From contig JAILLI010000166.1 in the NCBI GenBank assembly GCA_024693225.1, forward strand, positions 1 through 32,982: a stretch of 32,982 bases of DNA, read 5' to 3'. Position numbers and translations under genes: made by a program. This stretch comes from Lachnospiraceae bacterium. GTDB taxonomy: Bacteria > Bacillota > Clostridia > Lachnospirales > Lachnospiraceae. Numbering within the stretch: position 1 is the stretch's first letter; each line of letters starts with the position of its first letter. Below, piece by piece: positions 1,716 through 10,247 of the stretch. The notes beneath the pieces are model-generated. The model saw only the letters and a list, made by a program, of their open reading frames with translations. It was not told the origin of the DNA and made no database searches.

Positions 1716-3764
1716 TTGGACGATATAAGAAGAGAACGTCTGATCGTATCCATTGTCACGCTGGCAGCCATATCATGCATATTGATCAATTATTTCGGCA
1801 GTTGGGAAGCCTGGGTACCCTTTATAGTTTTTGTGGGAGGGATAGCCATATGGTATTTTCACATTGCCCAAAAGCTGGACATGAATTCCAGAATAAACCT
1901 GTATTTTGTCTACACGGCATTTCTTGTCTTCTATCACGGTATCCATGAAACAAGCCTTTACGATGTTTCTGTCGTGATCGTCCTCTTCATGGCAACATTT
2001 ACAATAGCAAAGAAAATGATACTGATGGACCTGATCCTTGCAGAGTATGGCATTATGATGGCCGTCCAGTTTTATTACCTTTACAGGGACAATCGGTTCG
2101 ATTCAGGTGCTTTCGAAACGATGAGGATAGCATTTCATATCGGCACGGTCGCTGCCATGTATATCCTCAGCCGGATTAACATCAATCACAGTATAGCGGA
2201 GAAGAACAGCATTGAGGAATGGATCAGAACTGTCAAGGAGAACGGTCATGACATGGAGGATTTTCTGTCAAATATCTCGCATGAACTCAGAACACCGGTA
2301 AATGTTATAAGCGGGATGACAGCCATACTTCAAAAGAACAATGACAGCAGGGAGCTTGTATCCATTCAGGATGCAGGGGTTCGTCTGGCGCATCAGATAG
2401 AGGATATCCAGGATTATACGGAGATTAAACGCAAAGAACTTGTGCTTGAGGAAGAAAACTATATGTGCATCTCCCTCATTAACGATGTTGTATCGAATTA
2501 CAGGGCTGAAAATGCGGACAGTGATCTTGAACTGATCATAGATCTTGATCCGCTCACACCTTCCATGCTAAAAGGTGATATCAAAAAACTGCGTAAGCTG
2601 TTCAGGCATCTTCTCGGAAATGCGGTCAAATTCACCAAAAGCGGAGGGATACTTGTAAAGGTGTTTACCGTCCTTCAGGAATATGGCTGTAACCTTACGA
2701 TCGAAGTAACGGATACGGGGACAGGCATGACGCGCGCCCAGATGTCGAGGCTGTCCCGGGGCATGTATCAGGCCAATAAAAAACGAAACCGAAGCACGGG
2801 CGGGATCGGCATAGGTCTTCCCATAGTGTACGGATTTGTTCATAAGATGGGTGGATTTGTGCGTATTGAAAGTGAAAGGGGAAGAGGGACAGTAGTCAGG
2901 TTATCTATCCCTCAGGCCATCGTTGACCCGGCTCCGTGCCTGTCGGTAAATAATGCCGCATCCACCAACGTTGTATTCTATACCAAGCCCGTTAAGTTCA
3001 TGGTACCTGAAGTCAGGGAGTTCTTCAGGACAATGGCCGTAAATATGGCTAACGGACTTGGGATAAAGCTGTATTCTGCCGAAAATGCCCGGGAACTCGA
3101 ACAGCTGGCGGATGAAATGAACATATCATACATATTCATGGGTCAGGAAGAATATGAGGATGACAGGAGCGTGATGGACCGCCTGTCCATGGAGGGACAT
3201 AAGGTTGTCGTATACGCCCGGCCGGGATCTGAGGATATACAATCTGATGCGATAACGGTACTGCCTAAGCCCCTGTACGGCTTTCCTGTCGTTCGTATAC
3301 TTAACGGCGAGACCGGGGACCGGTCACTTGAGGAGGATCACGGGAATCTGCGCTTTACGGGAGTTTCGGCTCTTGTTGTCGATGATGAGCCGATGAACCT
3401 TATTGTTGCGTCAGGTATGCTTCGCGAATATAAGATATTTGCCGATACGGCCGAAAGTGGTAAGGAAGCTGTCAGAAAGTTCGAGGAAGGGGAATATGAT
3501 GTCATCTTCATGGATCATATGATGCCCGGAATGGACGGAGTGGAGGCAATGAAGCAGATCAGACAGGTTGCCGCAGAGACAAAAAAGGAGCCTGTTGTGA
3601 TCGCCCTTACGGCAAATGCCTTAAGCGGCGCCAGAGAAATGTTCATAAAAGAGGGATTTGACGGATTTATAGCAAAGCCGATAGATGTAGGGGAATTTGA
3701 GCGCGTCATGAAGAGGGTCCTTCCTGAAAATATGATCCATTATGAAGGGAGGGGCGGCCAGTGA
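1716..3764 (+). CDS. hybrid sensor histidine kinase with degenerate and functional receivers
   Basis: A 682-residue membrane kinase. Residues 10-155 form about five or six transmembrane segments with no large extracellular loop. The HisKA helix carries phospho-acceptor His189 in NISHELRTPVN. The ATPase has N-box Asn302, G1 box DTGTGM (333-338) and G2 box GGIGIGL (362-368). Residues ~418-530 look like a receiver fold that ends VLPKP but has no phosphorylatable Asp (YIFMGQEE at that strand). Residues 552-670 are an intact receiver: acidic pair D555/D556, acceptor D600 in MDHMMPGMDG, T632, K654. The start is TTG, supported by GAGGAGG six bases upstream. It overlaps the next gene by 4 nt, so the two kinases are translationally coupled. 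No DNA-binding domain is present. Confidence 0.93.
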   Translation: MDDIRRERLIVSIVTLAAISCILINYFGSWEAWVPFIVFVGGIAIWYFHIAQKLDMNSRINLYFVYTAFLVFYHGIHETSLYDVSVVIVLFMATFTIAKKMILMDLILAEYGIMMAVQFYYLYRDNRFDSGAFETMRIAFHIGTVAAMYILSRININHSIAEKNSIEEWIRTVKENGHDMEDFLSNISHELRTPVNVISGMTAILQKNNDSRELVSIQDAGVRLAHQIEDIQDYTEIKRKELVLEEENYMCISLINDVVSNYRAENADSDLELIIDLDPLTPSMLKGDIKKLRKLFRHLLGNAVKFTKSGGILVKVFTVLQEYGCNLTIEVTDTGTGMTRAQMSRLSRGMYQANKKRNRSTGGIGIGLPIVYGFVHKMGGFVRIESERGRGTVVRLSIPQAIVDPAPCLSVNNAASTNVVFYTKPVKFMVPEVREFFRTMAVNMANGLGIKLYSAENARELEQLADEMNISYIFMGQEEYEDDRSVMDRLSMEGHKVVVYARPGSEDIQSDAITVLPKPLYGFPVVRILNGETGDRSLEEDHGNLRFTGVSALVVDDEPMNLIVASGMLREYKIFADTAESGKEAVRKFEEGEYDVIFMDHMMPGMDGVEAMKQIRQVAAETKKEPVVIALTANALSGAREMFIKEGFDGFIAKPIDVGEFERVMKRVLPENMIHYEGRGGQ

Positions 3765-6700
3765 ATGCTATCAGAAAACTGAGAAAAAGATTCTCGGATT
3801 ATCTGTTCGATCAGTCTGTCAATATAAAAGACAGAACCTTCATCCTGTTTTCCGTGTGTGAACTTGCAGCCCTTCTTGCGTCCGCTATTGTCGGCATATT
3901 TATGCAGGAGCCTTTTATATCGGTAGTCGCTGCCCTTTGCGGAGTTGTGGCAGGATGTCTGATCCTCTATTATTTTGTAAAGAAAGACAGGGTAAAAACC
4001 GCAAAAACAGCAGTTGTTCTCTTTCTGGTATTTATTCTGCGCCCATTTGCTTTCTTTGCAAAGGGAGGCATCGATAACGGTTCACTGATCATGTTCCTCC
4101 TGGGAGCATACTATCTGATCATGGTCCTTGAAGGAAAGTTCAGGATCATAATCTGCCTGATGGATACTGCGATCTTCATGATATGCGGGATGATCGCGTA
4201 TTACCATCCCGACGTTCTGATCGGATATTCCAGGAAGAAGGATTACGTCTTTTCATATTCACAGTATATAATAGGATTTCTTGTACTTACCATACTGATC
4301 ACGTTCTGGACAAGGATATTACAGAAAGAAACAAAGAGTGCCGAGGAAAAAACAAAGGAACTGGAGGAGATGAACCGGTCCCAGAACCGCTTCTTCTCCA
4401 GCATGAGTCATGAGATCCGTACCCCCATCAACACCGTGCTCGGTATGAACGAGCTCATATTAAGGCAGGAGGATGCTTCCGATGAGATCCGTAAGGACGC
4501 CAGAAACATCCAGGGCGCAGGAAAAATGCTGCTGGCACTCATAAACGATATTCTTGATGTCAGCAAGATCGAGGCGGGTAAGATGGATATCGTGCCTGTC
4601 AATTATAATGTGGCCTCGCTTCTGTCCGAGATAGTGAACATGATGTGGCTCAAGGCAGAAGAGAAGGGATTGGGTTTTAATGTGGATATCGATCCGGATG
4701 TCCCGGAAACACTTTTCGGTGATGAAGTCAGGATCAAGCAGATACTTATCAATCTTCTGAATAATGCAGTCAAATATACAAAAGAAGGCTCTGTAAGCCT
4801 GCATATGGAATGCGAGTTTCCCGGCAGCGGAGAAGCCCTCCTGATGATCCAGGTAAGTGATACCGGAATGGGTATAAAGCCGGAAGCCCTGCCACACCTG
4901 TTTGATACATTCCAGCGGGTTGATGAGGAGAAAAACCGCCATATAGAAGGAACAGGGCTCGGACTTTCGATAGTAAAGCAGCTCGTGGAACTTATGGACG
5001 GAGAGGTCACCGTGAACAGCGTTTATTCACAGGGTTCGACCTTTACGGTTAAGCTCAGGCAGGGTGTTTCATCTGAACAGCGTATAGGGAATCTGAGCAT
5101 AACCGGGGCAGGCACCATATCGAATTCGGAAAAGTTTGAACACAGTTTTCACGCACCTGCCGCAAGGATACTCATAGTAGATGATAATGAGATGAATCTG
5201 CAGGTGGAGAAGAGGCTTCTTGAAGGGACAGGCATGACGATAGATCTGGCAATGTCCGGAAAGGATGCTCTGGCTCTTACCCTGCGTAACCGGTACGATG
5301 TCATATTCATGGACCATCTGATGCCGGAGATGGACGGTATAGAGTGTTACGAGAGTATAAGGACACAGAAGGGCGGTATGAATGAAGCGTCTCCGATCAT
5401 CGTCCTTACCGCAAATGCAGGCGGAGAGAATATTGAACTTTACAACAACACAGGTTTTGACGGTTATCTTGTAAAACCTGTATCAGGGGCCATGCTCGAG
5501 GAAATGCTCCTGGCATATCTTCCTTCCGCAAAAGTGATCCTTTCAAAGGGAGGCGAGATGGCCGGTTCCATTATGAGTACCGCCAGCAGATATATCAAAA
5601 AGAAACCCGTCATCATAGCAACGAGTACAATGGTCGATCTGCCACAGCATGTATTAAGAGACCTGAACATCTCGGTCATCCCCTACAAGATCATTACCGA
5701 CGAAGGTGTATTCTTCGATACGGTTGATATCGATTCAGAGGAACTGGTACATTACATGAAGGATGAGACGAAGATCGTCACTTCGGAGCCACCGACCGAA
5801 GAAGCGCTCGTGAAGTTCTTCTCCTCGGAATTAAAGAAGGCGCATCATGTAATATACATTACACTCACAACCGGGAGCAGCAGGGAGTACGGGTGGGCTC
5901 TTAATGCGGCAAAGACTTTTGAAAACGTATCCGTTATCAATTCAGAAGCATTGTCGAGCGGAACGGGCATACTTGTAATGATAGCGGCAAGGCTTGTGCA
6001 GCAGAACCTGCCTGTTGATAAGATAATATCAGAACTGGAGGAAGCAAAGCGGCTCATAAGGTGCAGTTTTGTGATAAAATCAACAGATGTCATGGCCAGA
6101 CGCGACCGGATCAGTCCCTTTATGAACAGCGTGCTCAATACACTCTGGCTGAGGCCTATGCTCAGGGTCAGGAATGATAAGCTCGGGGTTGGGAGATTCC
6201 TCTTTGGCAGCGAGAGGAAATGCTATGAAAAATATATAAAATACGCCATACCGGCAAATCTGCATCCTGACAGATCATTTGTGTTCATCACTTATGCCGG
6301 GATGGAGGAAGAGGATCTTCTGTGGGTAGAGAAAAGACTCAACGAGAGGATGAAGTTCGATCATATCATCTTCCAGAAAGCATCTGCGGGTATAACTTCC
6401 AACTGCGGCGAGGGAACTTTCGGACTTCTGTTCATGGTAAAGGGCAACTATAATTACAACCTGGGGGCACTTTTTACCAACAGGGCCGAAGAGGGTGACT
6501 TCATAGACGAGCTTTCTGATGATGAAGCAGATACTGCCATTGTGACGGAAGATGAAGATACGGTCATATCAGAGGAGACAGAACATGAGGAAAAATGGTA
6601 CGATCATATCGTAGGCCTGGATCCTCTTCTTGCGATAAAGAACAGCGGTTCGGAGGAATCGTTCAGGTCGGTCCTTCAGATATTCTATGATTCATATGAA

Positions 6701-7168
6701 AGCAAAACCGGAGAGATACAAAAGTACTATGATGAGCAGGACTGGGAAAACTATACTATAAAAGTTCATGCCTTAAAGAGCAGCTCGCGTCTTGTGGGTG
6801 CGGCAGGTCTCGGAGATGAAGCGGAAGCGCTTGAGATGGCAGGGAAGAAGGGTGATACCGGTTTTATCACCAAATATCACCCGCTTATGATGATTTCGTA
6901 TGGAAAGATACATGATTCTCTTGATCCGGTATTTAATAAGGAGAGCAATGACCTTCCGGAGATAGCAGAGGATATGCTGACCGATGCATATGAGGGGCTT
7001 GCGGAATTCGTCGCATCAAGAGATTATGAACTTGCAAAGATGGTCACTTCTTCCATGAAGGAATATACCCTTTTGCAGGAAGATGAGGAAAGGTTTATGA
7101 GGATAGATGAATGCCTGTCCCGGCTTGACTGGGACGGGATCGGAGAGATATTAAAGGAAAGAGATTAA
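3761..7168 (+). CDS. hybrid histidine kinase fused to a DegV domain and HPt
   Basis: A 1135-residue protein. Order: six-helix membrane sensor (~25-185), HisKA with His217 in SMSHEIRTPIN, ATPase (Asn335; DTGMG 367-371; GTGLGLS 397-403), receiver (D474/D475, acceptor D518, T550, K572), DegV fold (~615-895), acidic linker (~908-945), HPt with His1003 in HALKSSSRLVGA, then a helical tail. The DegV assignment rests on IIATSTMVDLP, VTSEPPTEE and LSSGTGILVM near its N-terminal half and a GEGTFGLLFM strand near its end, matching the (S/T)-rich lipid-contact motifs of DegV/FakB proteins. FakB proteins bind fatty acids for a FakA kinase; no fakA is present here. GTG start, 4-nt overlap with the gene before. 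The domains allow a full His-Asp-His relay. DegV as a kinase module is unusual. Confidence 0.9.
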   Translation: MNAIRKLRKRFSDYLFDQSVNIKDRTFILFSVCELAALLASAIVGIFMQEPFISVVAALCGVVAGCLILYYFVKKDRVKTAKTAVVLFLVFILRPFAFFAKGGIDNGSLIMFLLGAYYLIMVLEGKFRIIICLMDTAIFMICGMIAYYHPDVLIGYSRKKDYVFSYSQYIIGFLVLTILITFWTRILQKETKSAEEKTKELEEMNRSQNRFFSSMSHEIRTPINTVLGMNELILRQEDASDEIRKDARNIQGAGKMLLALINDILDVSKIEAGKMDIVPVNYNVASLLSEIVNMMWLKAEEKGLGFNVDIDPDVPETLFGDEVRIKQILINLLNNAVKYTKEGSVSLHMECEFPGSGEALLMIQVSDTGMGIKPEALPHLFDTFQRVDEEKNRHIEGTGLGLSIVKQLVELMDGEVTVNSVYSQGSTFTVKLRQGVSSEQRIGNLSITGAGTISNSEKFEHSFHAPAARILIVDDNEMNLQVEKRLLEGTGMTIDLAMSGKDALALTLRNRYDVIFMDHLMPEMDGIECYESIRTQKGGMNEASPIIVLTANAGGENIELYNNTGFDGYLVKPVSGAMLEEMLLAYLPSAKVILSKGGEMAGSIMSTASRYIKKKPVIIATSTMVDLPQHVLRDLNISVIPYKIITDEGVFFDTVDIDSEELVHYMKDETKIVTSEPPTEEALVKFFSSELKKAHHVIYITLTTGSSREYGWALNAAKTFENVSVINSEALSSGTGILVMIAARLVQQNLPVDKIISELEEAKRLIRCSFVIKSTDVMARRDRISPFMNSVLNTLWLRPMLRVRNDKLGVGRFLFGSERKCYEKYIKYAIPANLHPDRSFVFITYAGMEEEDLLWVEKRLNERMKFDHIIFQKASAGITSNCGEGTFGLLFMVKGNYNYNLGALFTNRAEEGDFIDELSDDEADTAIVTEDEDTVISEETEHEEKWYDHIVGLDPLLAIKNSGSEESFRSVLQIFYDSYESKTGEIQKYYDEQDWENYTIKVHALKSSSRLVGAAGLGDEAEALEMAGKKGDTGFITKYHPLMMISYGKIHDSLDPVFNKESNDLPEIAEDMLTDAYEGLAEFVASRDYELAKMVTSSMKEYTLLQEDEERFMRIDECLSRLDWDGIGEILKERD

Positions 7169-7183: not shown

Positions 7184-7936
7184 ATGGGAAAAAAGATCAT
7201 GATCACAGCCCCGGGTGAAGGCTTTATAATAAAAGGACTTGAGACAAAGCTGAGCGATATAGGCATGTTTAACATGTATTGTCCTCCGGTCACCGACGAG
7301 ATCAGGGAAAACAGCGAAGGTACAGGGCTCTTTATCATCTTTACGGATGATAATGTTAGAAAGTACGCGGATGTGCTGCTTTTCATAAAAGAATTCTGCT
7401 TCGAGAGTGATGTGCGGATCATATTGGTCGGGACCAAGGAAGAGCATGAAATAGCGAGCGGATATGTTTCCGAAAATTTTATCCACAGGTTTTTTGAGAG
7501 ACCGCTTGACATGGAACAGCTTGTAGATGAAGTTGACCGCTATATGAAAGAGGGGACCGATACAACTGAAAGGAAGAGTATCCTTATCGTTGATGATGAT
7601 GTTTCGTATATGAGCATGATAATGAGCTGGCTGAAGGGTTCATACCGTGTTTCTATGGCAAATTCGGGGATGCAGGCGATCACGTGGCTGGTGAAGAACC
7701 GTGCCGATCTTATACTGCTGGACTACGAAATGCCGATCACACCGGGTCCGCAGGTTCTGGAGATGATAAGATCCGATGCCACACTTGCCGATATTCCCGT
7801 GATGTTCCTTACCGGGAAAGGTGACAAGGAGAGTATAATGAAAGTGCTGGCCTTAAAGCCGGTGGGATACGTGCTGAAGACCGTGGAAAAGAAAGAATTA
7901 TGTGAGAATATCTCCAAATTTTTTTCCACACGATGA
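7184..7936 (+). CDS. two-domain response regulator, pseudo-receiver plus receiver
   Basis: A 250-residue cytosolic protein. Residues 131-248 are a complete receiver: D137-D139 acidic cluster after ILIV, phospho-acceptor D180 in LILLDYEMP, T210 and K232. Residues 1-120 resemble a second receiver fold (strand LFIIFTDD, then RPLDMEQLVDEV like the last receiver helix) but lack an acceptor Asp in the usual place. There is no DNA-binding or enzymatic output, so it resembles a single-receiver phosphate shuttle or adaptor. Perfect AAGGAGG overlaps the stop of the kinase gene, 10 nt before the ATG, indicating co-transcription. It is the natural phosphate recipient from the upstream HPt; this is inference. 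Confidence 0.88.
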   Translation: MGKKIMITAPGEGFIIKGLETKLSDIGMFNMYCPPVTDEIRENSEGTGLFIIFTDDNVRKYADVLLFIKEFCFESDVRIILVGTKEEHEIASGYVSENFIHRFFERPLDMEQLVDEVDRYMKEGTDTTERKSILIVDDDVSYMSMIMSWLKGSYRVSMANSGMQAITWLVKNRADLILLDYEMPITPGPQVLEMIRSDATLADIPVMFLTGKGDKESIMKVLALKPVGYVLKTVEKKELCENISKFFSTR

Positions 7937-7985: not shown

Positions 7986-10247
7986 ATGAAGATCATCAGA
8001 CATGCATTTGATCGCATAAAAGAAAACATATATGATAATTCGGTCAGCGTGCAGGACAGATCCTTTATCCTCTTCTCATGTCTTGTCCTTATCGCACTTT
8101 ATGCAGCGGTCCCTTTCGGGATTATCATGCGTGAACCCCTGTCGGCAACCCTGTCCACCCTTTTTGGTGCAGTTTCCTTTTCCATATATATTTTTTATGT
8201 ACATAATAAGAAAAAGATAAAACAGGCCAAGCCGGTACTCTCCATAGTTGTGGTGTTTATATTTCTTCCCGTTATGTTCTTTACAAACGGAGGTGCAGGA
8301 GGAGGCGCTCCCAACTGGCTTCTCCTCGGCACGATCTATATAGGACTTATACTTGAGGGAAGGATGCGGGTGATCATGCTCGCAGCGAACGCTTTTGTTC
8401 TTACCGTATGCTGGATCATAGGATACAAGTTCCCCGGTCTTGTTACGGAATATACAAGAGGGCAGAATTATTTTGATGCCATAACAGGACTCCTCATAGT
8501 CGGAGGGATCGTGTACACGCTGATAGTATTTCATATCAGCCTCTATCGAAAAGATGAAGAAGACAAGAATCTGAGACGCCTGTTCGAGCAGACTGCTACG
8601 GCTCTGGTAAACGCGATAGATGCAAAAGATAAGTATACTCACGGACACTCTTCAAGAGTTGCCGAATATTCAAGAAGGATAGCCGAGTTCTCCGGTAAGA
8701 GCAGCGCAGAATGCGATGAGATATATCACATCGCCCTTCTTCATGATGTCGGAAAGATAGGCATCGCCGAGAGCATCATCAACAAGGAAGGCAAGCTTAC
8801 TGATGAAGAATATGAAGCTATCAAGCAGCATCCGGTTCTTGGGGCTCAGATACTGAAAAGCATAAGCGAGTATCCGGATCTGATCATCGGTGCAAGATAT
8901 CATCATGAAAGATATGACGGAAGAGGTTATCCCGACAAACTGAAAGGCGATGATATACCTGAGGTCGCAAGGATCATTTCTGTGGCAGACGCATATGATG
9001 CCATGACATCCAAGAGGAGTTACAGGGATCCCATACCGCAGCAGAGCGTGAGGGAAGAGATAGTAAAAGGATCGGGTACCCAGTTCGATCCCAAGTTTGC
9101 CAAGATCATGCAGCATCTCATAGATCTTGATACGGAATATGATATGAAGGAAAAGACCGGCGTGCAGGAACTTGCCGGTAGAAATGAGCTCATATGCATA
9201 AAGTGCAGGGATGAGATATCTGACGGTATCCTTGTAGGTCCCGCTCCCCAGAAGAGATTCATACATTTTAAGTGTGCTGCCGCAGACCGTTCAGGGAAAG
9301 AGTGCTCACCCGCAATGATTCTCTTTGACTCTCTGGATGGAAGGTACCATGACAATCCTCACGATATGGAGGAACTCAACTATTTTGAATACGCAGTGCT
9401 TAAGCTTGACGGCCGCTATGAATGCGAAGGCGCCAGAAAGATCGCTGTCAATAAGAGAGCCGGCACAAGAGGGTCCGATGCTCCGGACGGAAAAGGGATA
9501 GTCAAATATGAGATCGAAGCCGTTAAGATAAAAGACCATGTCCTTATCAGCATAGATGACGGCAGGGAAATAGTTGATGTAACGATCGCTCTTCCCGATA
9601 CGGCAAGGTATTTCTATATAGGTCTTACCGGTGATAACTGTCGGATCTATGATGTAAATATAGATATTGATGAGGGATACGTTCCGGAAGACTATATCCC
9701 CAGGATAGCAGAAGAGATCAGTTATATCAAAGGACCGTCAGGCGATATTCCAAATGTACAGATGGACGGATACAGAACGGATTCCACACTGGGGATCCCT
9801 GTAAGGGACGGGATGAAGATAACCTTCCATACCATGAGCCTTCCGACGGCTCGACTGGTCTGGCATTGTGCATATGCCGACATCTTCTATTCCAAGGACA
9901 GAAAGCCTTCGGGAGAAGAATACAGGGAATATGCGCTGATAAGACTTGACGGTGAGAACTGGGAAGCAGTCGGAGTAGCCGAAAACAAAATGAATGTGAA
10001 CATGAGTGATGATTTTAAAGGGTGGGATGCCTGGAAGGAAGCAAACAAGAAGGGCTTCGACTGCACCCTCTCATTCAGAAGGGATGACAACAAGATCATC
10101 ACCACAACGGAGAACTTCGGAATAAGCCTCAATATCACAACGGTTGTTCTTGATAATCCCTTTGATATTTATGTGGCACTTACCGGTGACCAGTGTGCCA
10201 TAACCAATATCCGGATAACAAACAACGAACAGGGATCAGATATATGA
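7986..10247 (+). CDS. HD-GYP cyclic-di-GMP phosphodiesterase with sensor and duplicated C-terminal domain
   Basis: A 753-residue protein. Residues 1-190 are a six-helix membrane sensor clearly paralogous to that of the DegV kinase: both share an SV..(Q/K)DR(S/T)FILFS stretch, a (R/Q)EP after helix 1, and an F(F/A)..GG loop. Residues 198-385 are a canonical HD-GYP domain with HSSRV (His221), LLHDVGKIG (H253, D254) and HHERYDGRGYP (306-316), all metal ligands present; such domains hydrolyse cyclic-di-GMP. A cysteine-rich spacer (C404, C407, H427, C430, C440) could bind zinc. Residues ~445-746 hold two related beta-rich copies: FEYAVLKLDG/REYALIRLDG and YIGLTGDNC/YVALTGDQC. They resemble concanavalin-like folds and lie on the cytosolic side. 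The start is ATG with a weak AGAGAGAG ribosome site. Confidence 0.92.
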   Translation: MKIIRHAFDRIKENIYDNSVSVQDRSFILFSCLVLIALYAAVPFGIIMREPLSATLSTLFGAVSFSIYIFYVHNKKKIKQAKPVLSIVVVFIFLPVMFFTNGGAGGGAPNWLLLGTIYIGLILEGRMRVIMLAANAFVLTVCWIIGYKFPGLVTEYTRGQNYFDAITGLLIVGGIVYTLIVFHISLYRKDEEDKNLRRLFEQTATALVNAIDAKDKYTHGHSSRVAEYSRRIAEFSGKSSAECDEIYHIALLHDVGKIGIAESIINKEGKLTDEEYEAIKQHPVLGAQILKSISEYPDLIIGARYHHERYDGRGYPDKLKGDDIPEVARIISVADAYDAMTSKRSYRDPIPQQSVREEIVKGSGTQFDPKFAKIMQHLIDLDTEYDMKEKTGVQELAGRNELICIKCRDEISDGILVGPAPQKRFIHFKCAAADRSGKECSPAMILFDSLDGRYHDNPHDMEELNYFEYAVLKLDGRYECEGARKIAVNKRAGTRGSDAPDGKGIVKYEIEAVKIKDHVLISIDDGREIVDVTIALPDTARYFYIGLTGDNCRIYDVNIDIDEGYVPEDYIPRIAEEISYIKGPSGDIPNVQMDGYRTDSTLGIPVRDGMKITFHTMSLPTARLVWHCAYADIFYSKDRKPSGEEYREYALIRLDGENWEAVGVAENKMNVNMSDDFKGWDAWKEANKKGFDCTLSFRRDDNKIITTTENFGISLNITTVVLDNPFDIYVALTGDQCAITNIRITNNEQGSDI

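Follow-up and report, generated by a model that had tools for sequence, protein, structure and literature searches.

A DegV domain of the FakB type within a conserved pair of hybrid histidine kinases in Lachnospiraceae: a candidate lipid-status input

The hybrid histidine kinases TorS, BarA and ArcB have the domain order HisKA-HATPase-receiver-histidine phosphotransfer (HPt) domain. The protein described here, encoded in a 32,982-nucleotide stretch of DNA (the window) from a Lachnospiraceae bacterium (assembly GCA_024693225.1, contig JAILLI010000166.1), has the same order but with a DegV domain inserted between the receiver and the HPt domain, and we refer to it as the DegV kinase. By analogy, the closest working parallel that we found is the RpfC/RpfG system of Xanthomonas, likewise built on a membrane hybrid kinase with receiver and HPt, in which, in the part of the source cited here, a fatty-acid signal acts through the kinase on an HD-GYP regulator (PMC4504480). 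An HD-GYP protein is encoded in part of the DegV kinase loci. For the DegV kinase a fatty-acid-type signal is only suspected, and whereas RpfC senses diffusible signal factor (DSF) through its membrane helices, the DegV system has a separate DegV domain and one HPt between two kinases.

The inserted domain itself belongs with the FakB/DegV proteins (PF02645, TIGR00762). In the passages of the FakB literature drawn on here, the carboxylate of the fatty acid bound by FakB1 is held by a network of Thr62, Ser95, Ser171 and His270; Arg173 and Arg205 are completely conserved, Arg205 docking to FakA and to the membrane, and Arg173 being required for the kinase reaction and dispensable for fatty-acid exchange (PMC8892158, PMC9136124). 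FakA_C, according to the same portion of the second source, is without the three segments that roof the tunnel and has no tunnel (PMC9136124). A DegV histidine kinase is described in no title or abstract start among the open-access papers searched, a scope outside which most subscription papers and the InterPro architecture lists fall, so that such proteins may well be mentioned or catalogued there; PMC3146951 contains both terms, but in the part concerned DegV figures only as a gene neighbor.

The gene is a single open frame. It begins with GTG at 3761, in overlap with the stop codon of the upstream gene, which encodes a partner kinase. The features of the two genes, in window coordinates, are as follows.

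1716-3764, forward strand: partner hybrid kinase, 682 amino acids, with membrane segments, HisKA, HATPase and receiver and no HPt (Pfam, hydropathy)
3761-7168, forward strand: DegV hybrid histidine kinase P0001, 1135 amino acids (open frame, Pfam)
3770-4330, forward strand: N-terminal membrane module, residues 4-190, without a Pfam match at E 0.01 (hydropathy)
4382-4579, forward strand: HisKA, residues 208-273, phospho-acceptor His217 (Pfam, alignment)
4718-5059, forward strand: HATPase_c, residues 320-433 (Pfam)
5168-5506, forward strand: receiver (Response_reg), residues 470-582, acceptor Asp518 (Pfam, alignment)
5615-6436, forward strand: DegV domain, residues 619-892 (Pfam, alignment, predicted structure)
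6671-6838, forward strand: HPt, residues 971-1026, His1003 (Pfam, alignment, predicted structure)
6878-7165, forward strand: C-terminal helical extension, residues 1040-1135, without a Pfam match

The architecture is real: the original prediction, that one 1135-residue protein joins a membrane sensor, a kinase core, a receiver, a DegV domain and an HPt, is upheld by Pfam for the kinase, receiver, DegV and HPt domains, and NCBIfam agrees on DegV. The DegV domain scores 131.3 bits in Pfam (cut-off 27) and 142.6 bits against NCBIfam TIGR00762 (cut-off 99.7). The Hpt match is barely above threshold, at 24.7 bits for a cut-off of 24.6, and is backed by Pfam Hpt matches in 10 of 10 aligned proteins, the window protein among them; His1003 is identical across all ten. 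About five to six membrane segments lie within residues 25-188, as judged by hydropathy. The acceptor set of a hybrid kinase with HPt is thereby complete in one protein: the HisKA histidine, the ATPase, the receiver aspartate and the HPt histidine. The TorS, BarA and ArcB models are among the highest-scoring NCBIfam models against the DegV kinase, the kinase models listed all being below their curated cut-offs.

A model of the DegV part (285 residues, alignment of 12 rows) has a pLDDT of 92.9 and a pTM of 0.90. Foldseek matched it to 68 chains of solved structures at E <= 0.001, and the best 45 of these 68 are of the DegV/FakB type, led by 2dt8, 1pzx, 4x9x and the Staphylococcus aureus FakB1 entries; by query length their TM scores are 0.73-0.86, at least 0.77 for all except one, and several of the structures were solved with fatty acid. 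The earlier claim of a complete DegV-type domain, which a prediction lacking the DegV fold would have refuted, accords with the predicted fold, and by that fold and by the curated DegV cut-offs that it exceeds, the domain is a member of the DegV-fold family. Also among the matches is DhaQ, titled co-activator of the dihydroxyacetone kinase operon of Lactococcus, with a low structural similarity (TM 0.51-0.55). DhaQ, which is not known to be fused to a histidine kinase, presumably represents another reuse in regulation of a fold of the kinase-substrate-binding type. The model of the C-terminal 190 residues has a pLDDT of 90.8 and a pTM of 0.59; Foldseek found no solved structure matching it at E 0.001 or better, and the top-ranked match is the HPt domain 3myf (TM 0.83 by target length, E 0.017).

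The signalling DegV domains share with the FakB/DegV proteins the fold, the tunnel-capping segments and mostly Ser/Thr at the carboxylate positions; they differ in being built into, or encoded beside, a kinase and in several residues that are critical in FakB. We compared a FakB-like reference of 15 rows (11 free-standing proteins and 4 from the PDB) with a signalling set of 73 rows, using the FakB2 positions Thr61, Ser93, His266, Arg170 and Arg202, which we take to be the equivalents of the FakB1 positions; the distances between the conserved residues agree with this assignment, and the arginine spacing of 4x9x fits FakB2 numbering. The FakB-like rows have Thr61, Ser/Thr93, Arg170 and Arg202 in 15 of 15 and His266 in 14 of 15, the only non-His row being L004, from the window genome itself, which has Tyr at 266, where its matched stretch ends. 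The window domain has Ser675 and Ser707 at positions 61 and 93, Arg783 at 170, Phe815, adjoining the invariant Gly816, at 202, and Asn881 at 266. Across the signalling rows, position 61 is Ser/Thr in 66 of 73 and position 93 in 60 of 73, and Arg170, kept in 33 of 73, is not conserved. Arg202 is lost in 72 of 73 (Arg in one row, Lys in another), a site that shifts by one column between alignments and reads as Gly in one and as a mostly hydrophobic residue in the other. Position 266 is Asn in 68 of 73 and His in 2, with a Cys following it in 65 of 73, and Lys185, present in 15 of 15 FakB-like rows, is replaced, most often by His (45/73). All 73 signalling rows contain the three tunnel-capping segments of FakB, whose positions were carried over approximately from FakB1 to FakB2 numbering. 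Mostly hydrophobic columns number 67 in both groups, with 6 only in the FakB-like and 8 only in the signalling rows.

With the FakA-docking arginine and the carboxylate histidine lost, the Ser/Thr pair mostly kept and the tunnel caps retained, the fused domain appears not to be a working FakB and probably no longer serves FakA, and it may still bind something at the same place as FakB. The chances that this ligand is a fatty acid appear to us about even. The window genome has a FakA of its own, in which the Dak2 and C-terminal domains score above cut-off and the middle domain slightly below (24 vs 24.9 bits), and four free-standing DegV proteins that keep both arginines.

The same pairing with a second kinase is found in numerous related bacteria of the gut and rumen. 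Of the 76 DegV frames in the fetched loci, 69 have a signalling frame of more than 150 amino acids directly upstream; six of the other seven are truncated by a contig end or begin 120 bases or less from one, and the seventh, L075, has only a 141-amino acid receiver frame within its 578 upstream bases. In 33 of the 69 pairs the DegV protein carries the HPt and the partner lacks it, the reverse holds in 31 and, with a cut partner, in 2, and no pair has it on both members. The three remaining pairs (L077, L104, L111) have no HPt on the nearest neighbor and one elsewhere in the cluster. Once near-copies, L021, L104, L111, the second DegV kinase of L077 and the cut partners L076 and L079 are left out, exactly one HPt is found in 60 of 60 non-redundant scored pairs, 29 times on the DegV protein and 31 times on the partner, and it is for this reason likely, in our judgment, that the DegV kinase and its partner work as one relay with a common HPt. 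In 20 genomes, all picked for carrying DegV kinases, the membrane module of the partner has 31 matches. A DegV gene comes next in 28 of them; in one the next frame is cut and resembles the membrane module of the DegV kinase, and two run into contig ends. Acceptor motifs are intact in every DegV protein that has the domain (HisKA 54/54, receiver 54/54, HPt 29/29), and simple patterns find them in most partners (HisKA 60/60, receiver 56/60, HPt 27/31).

A pattern scan of 84,980 species genomes, sensitive only to close relatives, yielded 13 loci, 12 of them titled Lachnospiraceae or Pseudobutyrivibrio and one Clostridiales. Within the window's own family, a profile built from 51 signalling DegV domains (threshold E <= 1e-72) finds matches in 74 of 397 genomes. 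Of its 104 matches there, 92 are in open frames of at least 780 amino acids, spread over 66 of the 397 genomes; frames of 1090-1170 amino acids hold 20 matches in 16 genomes, and one further match is in a frame of 1582, all lengths being measured from stop to stop and so a few residues longer than the proteins. Two main architectures are found. Class A, of about 1130 amino acids, is membrane module-kinase-receiver-DegV-HPt; class B, of about 900, has the same order without the HPt, so that DegV is the C-terminal domain. In a rapidly built tree without bootstrap, which holds 88 rows (73 signalling and 15 FakB-like DegVs), a single branch with an SH-aLRT of 99 separates the two groups, with long branches flagged for L004, L001, L002, L111 and 2dt8 and only 15 FakB-like rows sampled. 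The near-identical L018, L019 and L055 were left out of the residue, tree and HD-GYP counts; L017 and L019 were left out of A1, L014, L015, L017, L019 and L055 of A2, and L014, L017, L019 and L021 of A3 and A4.

Other loci distribute the same parts differently. L113 and L114 encode a DegV-HPt protein without a kinase domain, each adjoining a kinase-receiver gene without HPt. L105-L108 have free-standing DegV genes directly 3' of a kinase with HPt, and by the Asn-Cys-Gly signature that they share with the fused domains they are unfused members of the signalling group. L104 is a split version of the system. The frame scan gave the following positions, in script coordinates.

L113, 5855-7115, reverse strand: DegV-HPt protein
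L114, 5792-7265, reverse strand: DegV-HPt protein
L110, 5445-10194, reverse strand: kinase of 1582 amino acids with DegV at the N-terminus

By eye, a long region between the N-terminal DegV and the kinase-receiver-HPt part of L110 resembles extracellular sensor domains. L077 has two tandem DegV kinase genes with a kinase with HPt on either side, and in L021 (6178-9326) the DegV kinase is broken into two overlapping frames of 474 and 592 amino acids.

Downstream of the DegV kinase, the window holds two genes on the same strand as the kinase pair that might belong to its output.

7184-7936, forward strand: receiver protein, about 130 residues without a Pfam match and then a receiver at 133-243; possible relay target (Pfam)
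7986-10247, forward strand: HD-GYP protein with a membrane module of the type found in the DegV kinase; possible linked output (Pfam, alignment)

The first 130 or so residues of the receiver protein may, by eye, be a degenerate receiver. The membrane modules of the HD-GYP protein and the DegV kinase share 32% identity (E 3e-28); the C-terminal part of the HD-GYP protein (about 390-753) has no Pfam match, and the protein has no receiver match. Across loci we scanned 58 downstream and 58 upstream neighbors, picked by script and including some cut or spurious frames. The genes just upstream of the partner encode a receiver in 35, HD-GYP in 13 and GGDEF in 8 of 58, a few of these picks being kinases of the cluster themselves, and those downstream a receiver in 16 and GGDEF in 3 of 58. 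By locus type, HD-GYP accompanies class B in 12 of 35 loci, DegV kinases with HPt in 2 of 31 (the window and L110) and others in 2 of 7, counts that are lower bounds, many loci being cut. The frequent receiver, HD-GYP and GGDEF neighbors suggest, by the example of RpfC/RpfG, that part of the family has an output through cyclic di-GMP (c-di-GMP). The recurring non-signalling families are Na_Ala_symp and DUF6976 downstream (5/58 each) and, upstream, the Fe-hydrogenase domain and Fer4_7 (3/58 each) and MatE and MurJ (2/58 each).

The explanation that we favor, by a narrow measure of confidence, is a conserved two-kinase phosphorelay in which a FakB-type domain, no longer tied to FakA, now serves next to the receiver and the HPt as a sensory module in the cytoplasm. 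Through its retained Ser/Thr pair, and with Asn where FakB has His, the DegV domain would bind a fatty acid or another amphipathic carboxylate of similar kind. Its bound or free state would alter the passage of phosphate from the receivers of both kinases to the one common HPt, which would be the lipid gating suggested in the original prediction. The HPt would then hand the phosphate to a nearby receiver protein, in part of the family one breaking or making c-di-GMP, and the whole would act as a lipid-status sensor controlling c-di-GMP or a single-receiver output. More tentatively, and with doubt somewhat outweighing conviction, these systems might form a separate class of lipid-status phosphorelay, in which a FakB relative without FakA docking is the input of a two-kinase complex, a single HPt is movable and c-di-GMP turnover is a frequent output; in such a class the DegV part could be fused to the kinase, fused to the HPt alone, N-terminal, or free beside the kinase.

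Several observations weigh against this explanation, and they bear on its different parts. Thirteen of the 73 signalling rows have neither Ser nor Thr at position 93, and, given the Asn for His, the lost Arg and the lost Lys185, the ligand could be another one or be absent. The families found in at least 2 of the 116 scanned neighbors include no fatty-acid gene, and a lipid ligand is for that reason not supported by the neighborhood. On the relay side, a strict pattern fails to find the receiver motif in 4 of 60 partners and the HPt motif in 4 of the 31 partners with an HPt, and each trait of HPt location changes only three times on the tree, so that the HPt switch cannot be assessed for significance: the independent-pairs test has one pair on the starred branches and three on all branches, and significance is unreachable. 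The window is linked to HD-GYP by proximity and a similar membrane module only, and HPt-bearing DegV kinases generally have HD-GYP in as few loci as noted above (2/31). Finally, DegV stands after the receiver, where an output domain would also stand.

This last point leads to an unlikely alternative, that the DegV domain is an output, with phosphorylation of the receiver setting whether lipid is held or released and the relay controlling the fatty-acid pool or membrane composition. The domain does follow directly on the receiver and occupies the usual output place, the C-terminus, in the class of about 900 amino acids, and some loci have a DegV-HPt protein without a kinase or a free DegV beside one. 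However, the arginine for FakA and membrane docking (PMC8892158, in the part cited) is lost in 72 of 73 rows, which makes delivery to FakA unlikely, and the window genome has separate FakB-like proteins. We would put no greater weight on the proposal that the domain responds to a ligand other than fatty acid, or has no ligand at all and provides a surface on which the two kinases and the HPt dock. The near fixation of Asn at position 266 and of the Cys after it, the frequent His at 185, the absence of a recurring lipid gene and the appearance of DhaQ in the Foldseek list all agree with it; the kept tunnel caps and the largely shared hydrophobic columns, as expected if the domain still encloses a hydrophobic ligand, do not. 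Family models and fold both place the domain in DegV/FakB, and P0001 retains the arginine at position 170, as an ordinary FakB that feeds FakA and is tethered to the kinase by chance would, yet the changes at positions 202, 170 and 266 (72, 40 and 68 of 73 rows without the arginine, without the arginine and with Asn, respectively), where FakB-like rows keep 15, 15 and 14 of 15, render this highly improbable. Least credible of all, to a vanishing degree, is a chimeric gene made by assembly or annotation: the window genome is fragmented (224 contigs, completeness 85.1, contamination 6.76), but architecture and spacing are conserved in many independent genomes, which argues against both chance and an assembly chimera.

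If the sensory explanation is correct, these bacteria use a two-component relay to monitor free fatty acid inside the cell, or a metabolite related to it, and the sensor arose from a carrier protein that lost the residues for docking to its kinase. Whether two membrane kinases act as one relay can be tested directly through the movable HPt, and the DegV domain is probably amenable to purification on its own, which would make the identity of the ligand an easily addressed first question. Three features are not visible from one window: the loss of residues on which the role of FakB as a FakA substrate depends, the adjacent partner kinase with a single HPt for the pair, and membership in a widespread family whose architectures vary.

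Beyond the window's own family, the signalling DegV profile matches 12 of 391 genomes in a sample of the class, and within that sample fused frames are found outside the family only in three genomes of one genus. In a phylum sample of 398 genomes, the frames of more than 700 amino acids among the matches listed are all from the window's family. Also outside the family, DegV domains occur in frames of 580 and 603 amino acids (G465:C44 and G747:C12), which are other DegV fusions or double domains.

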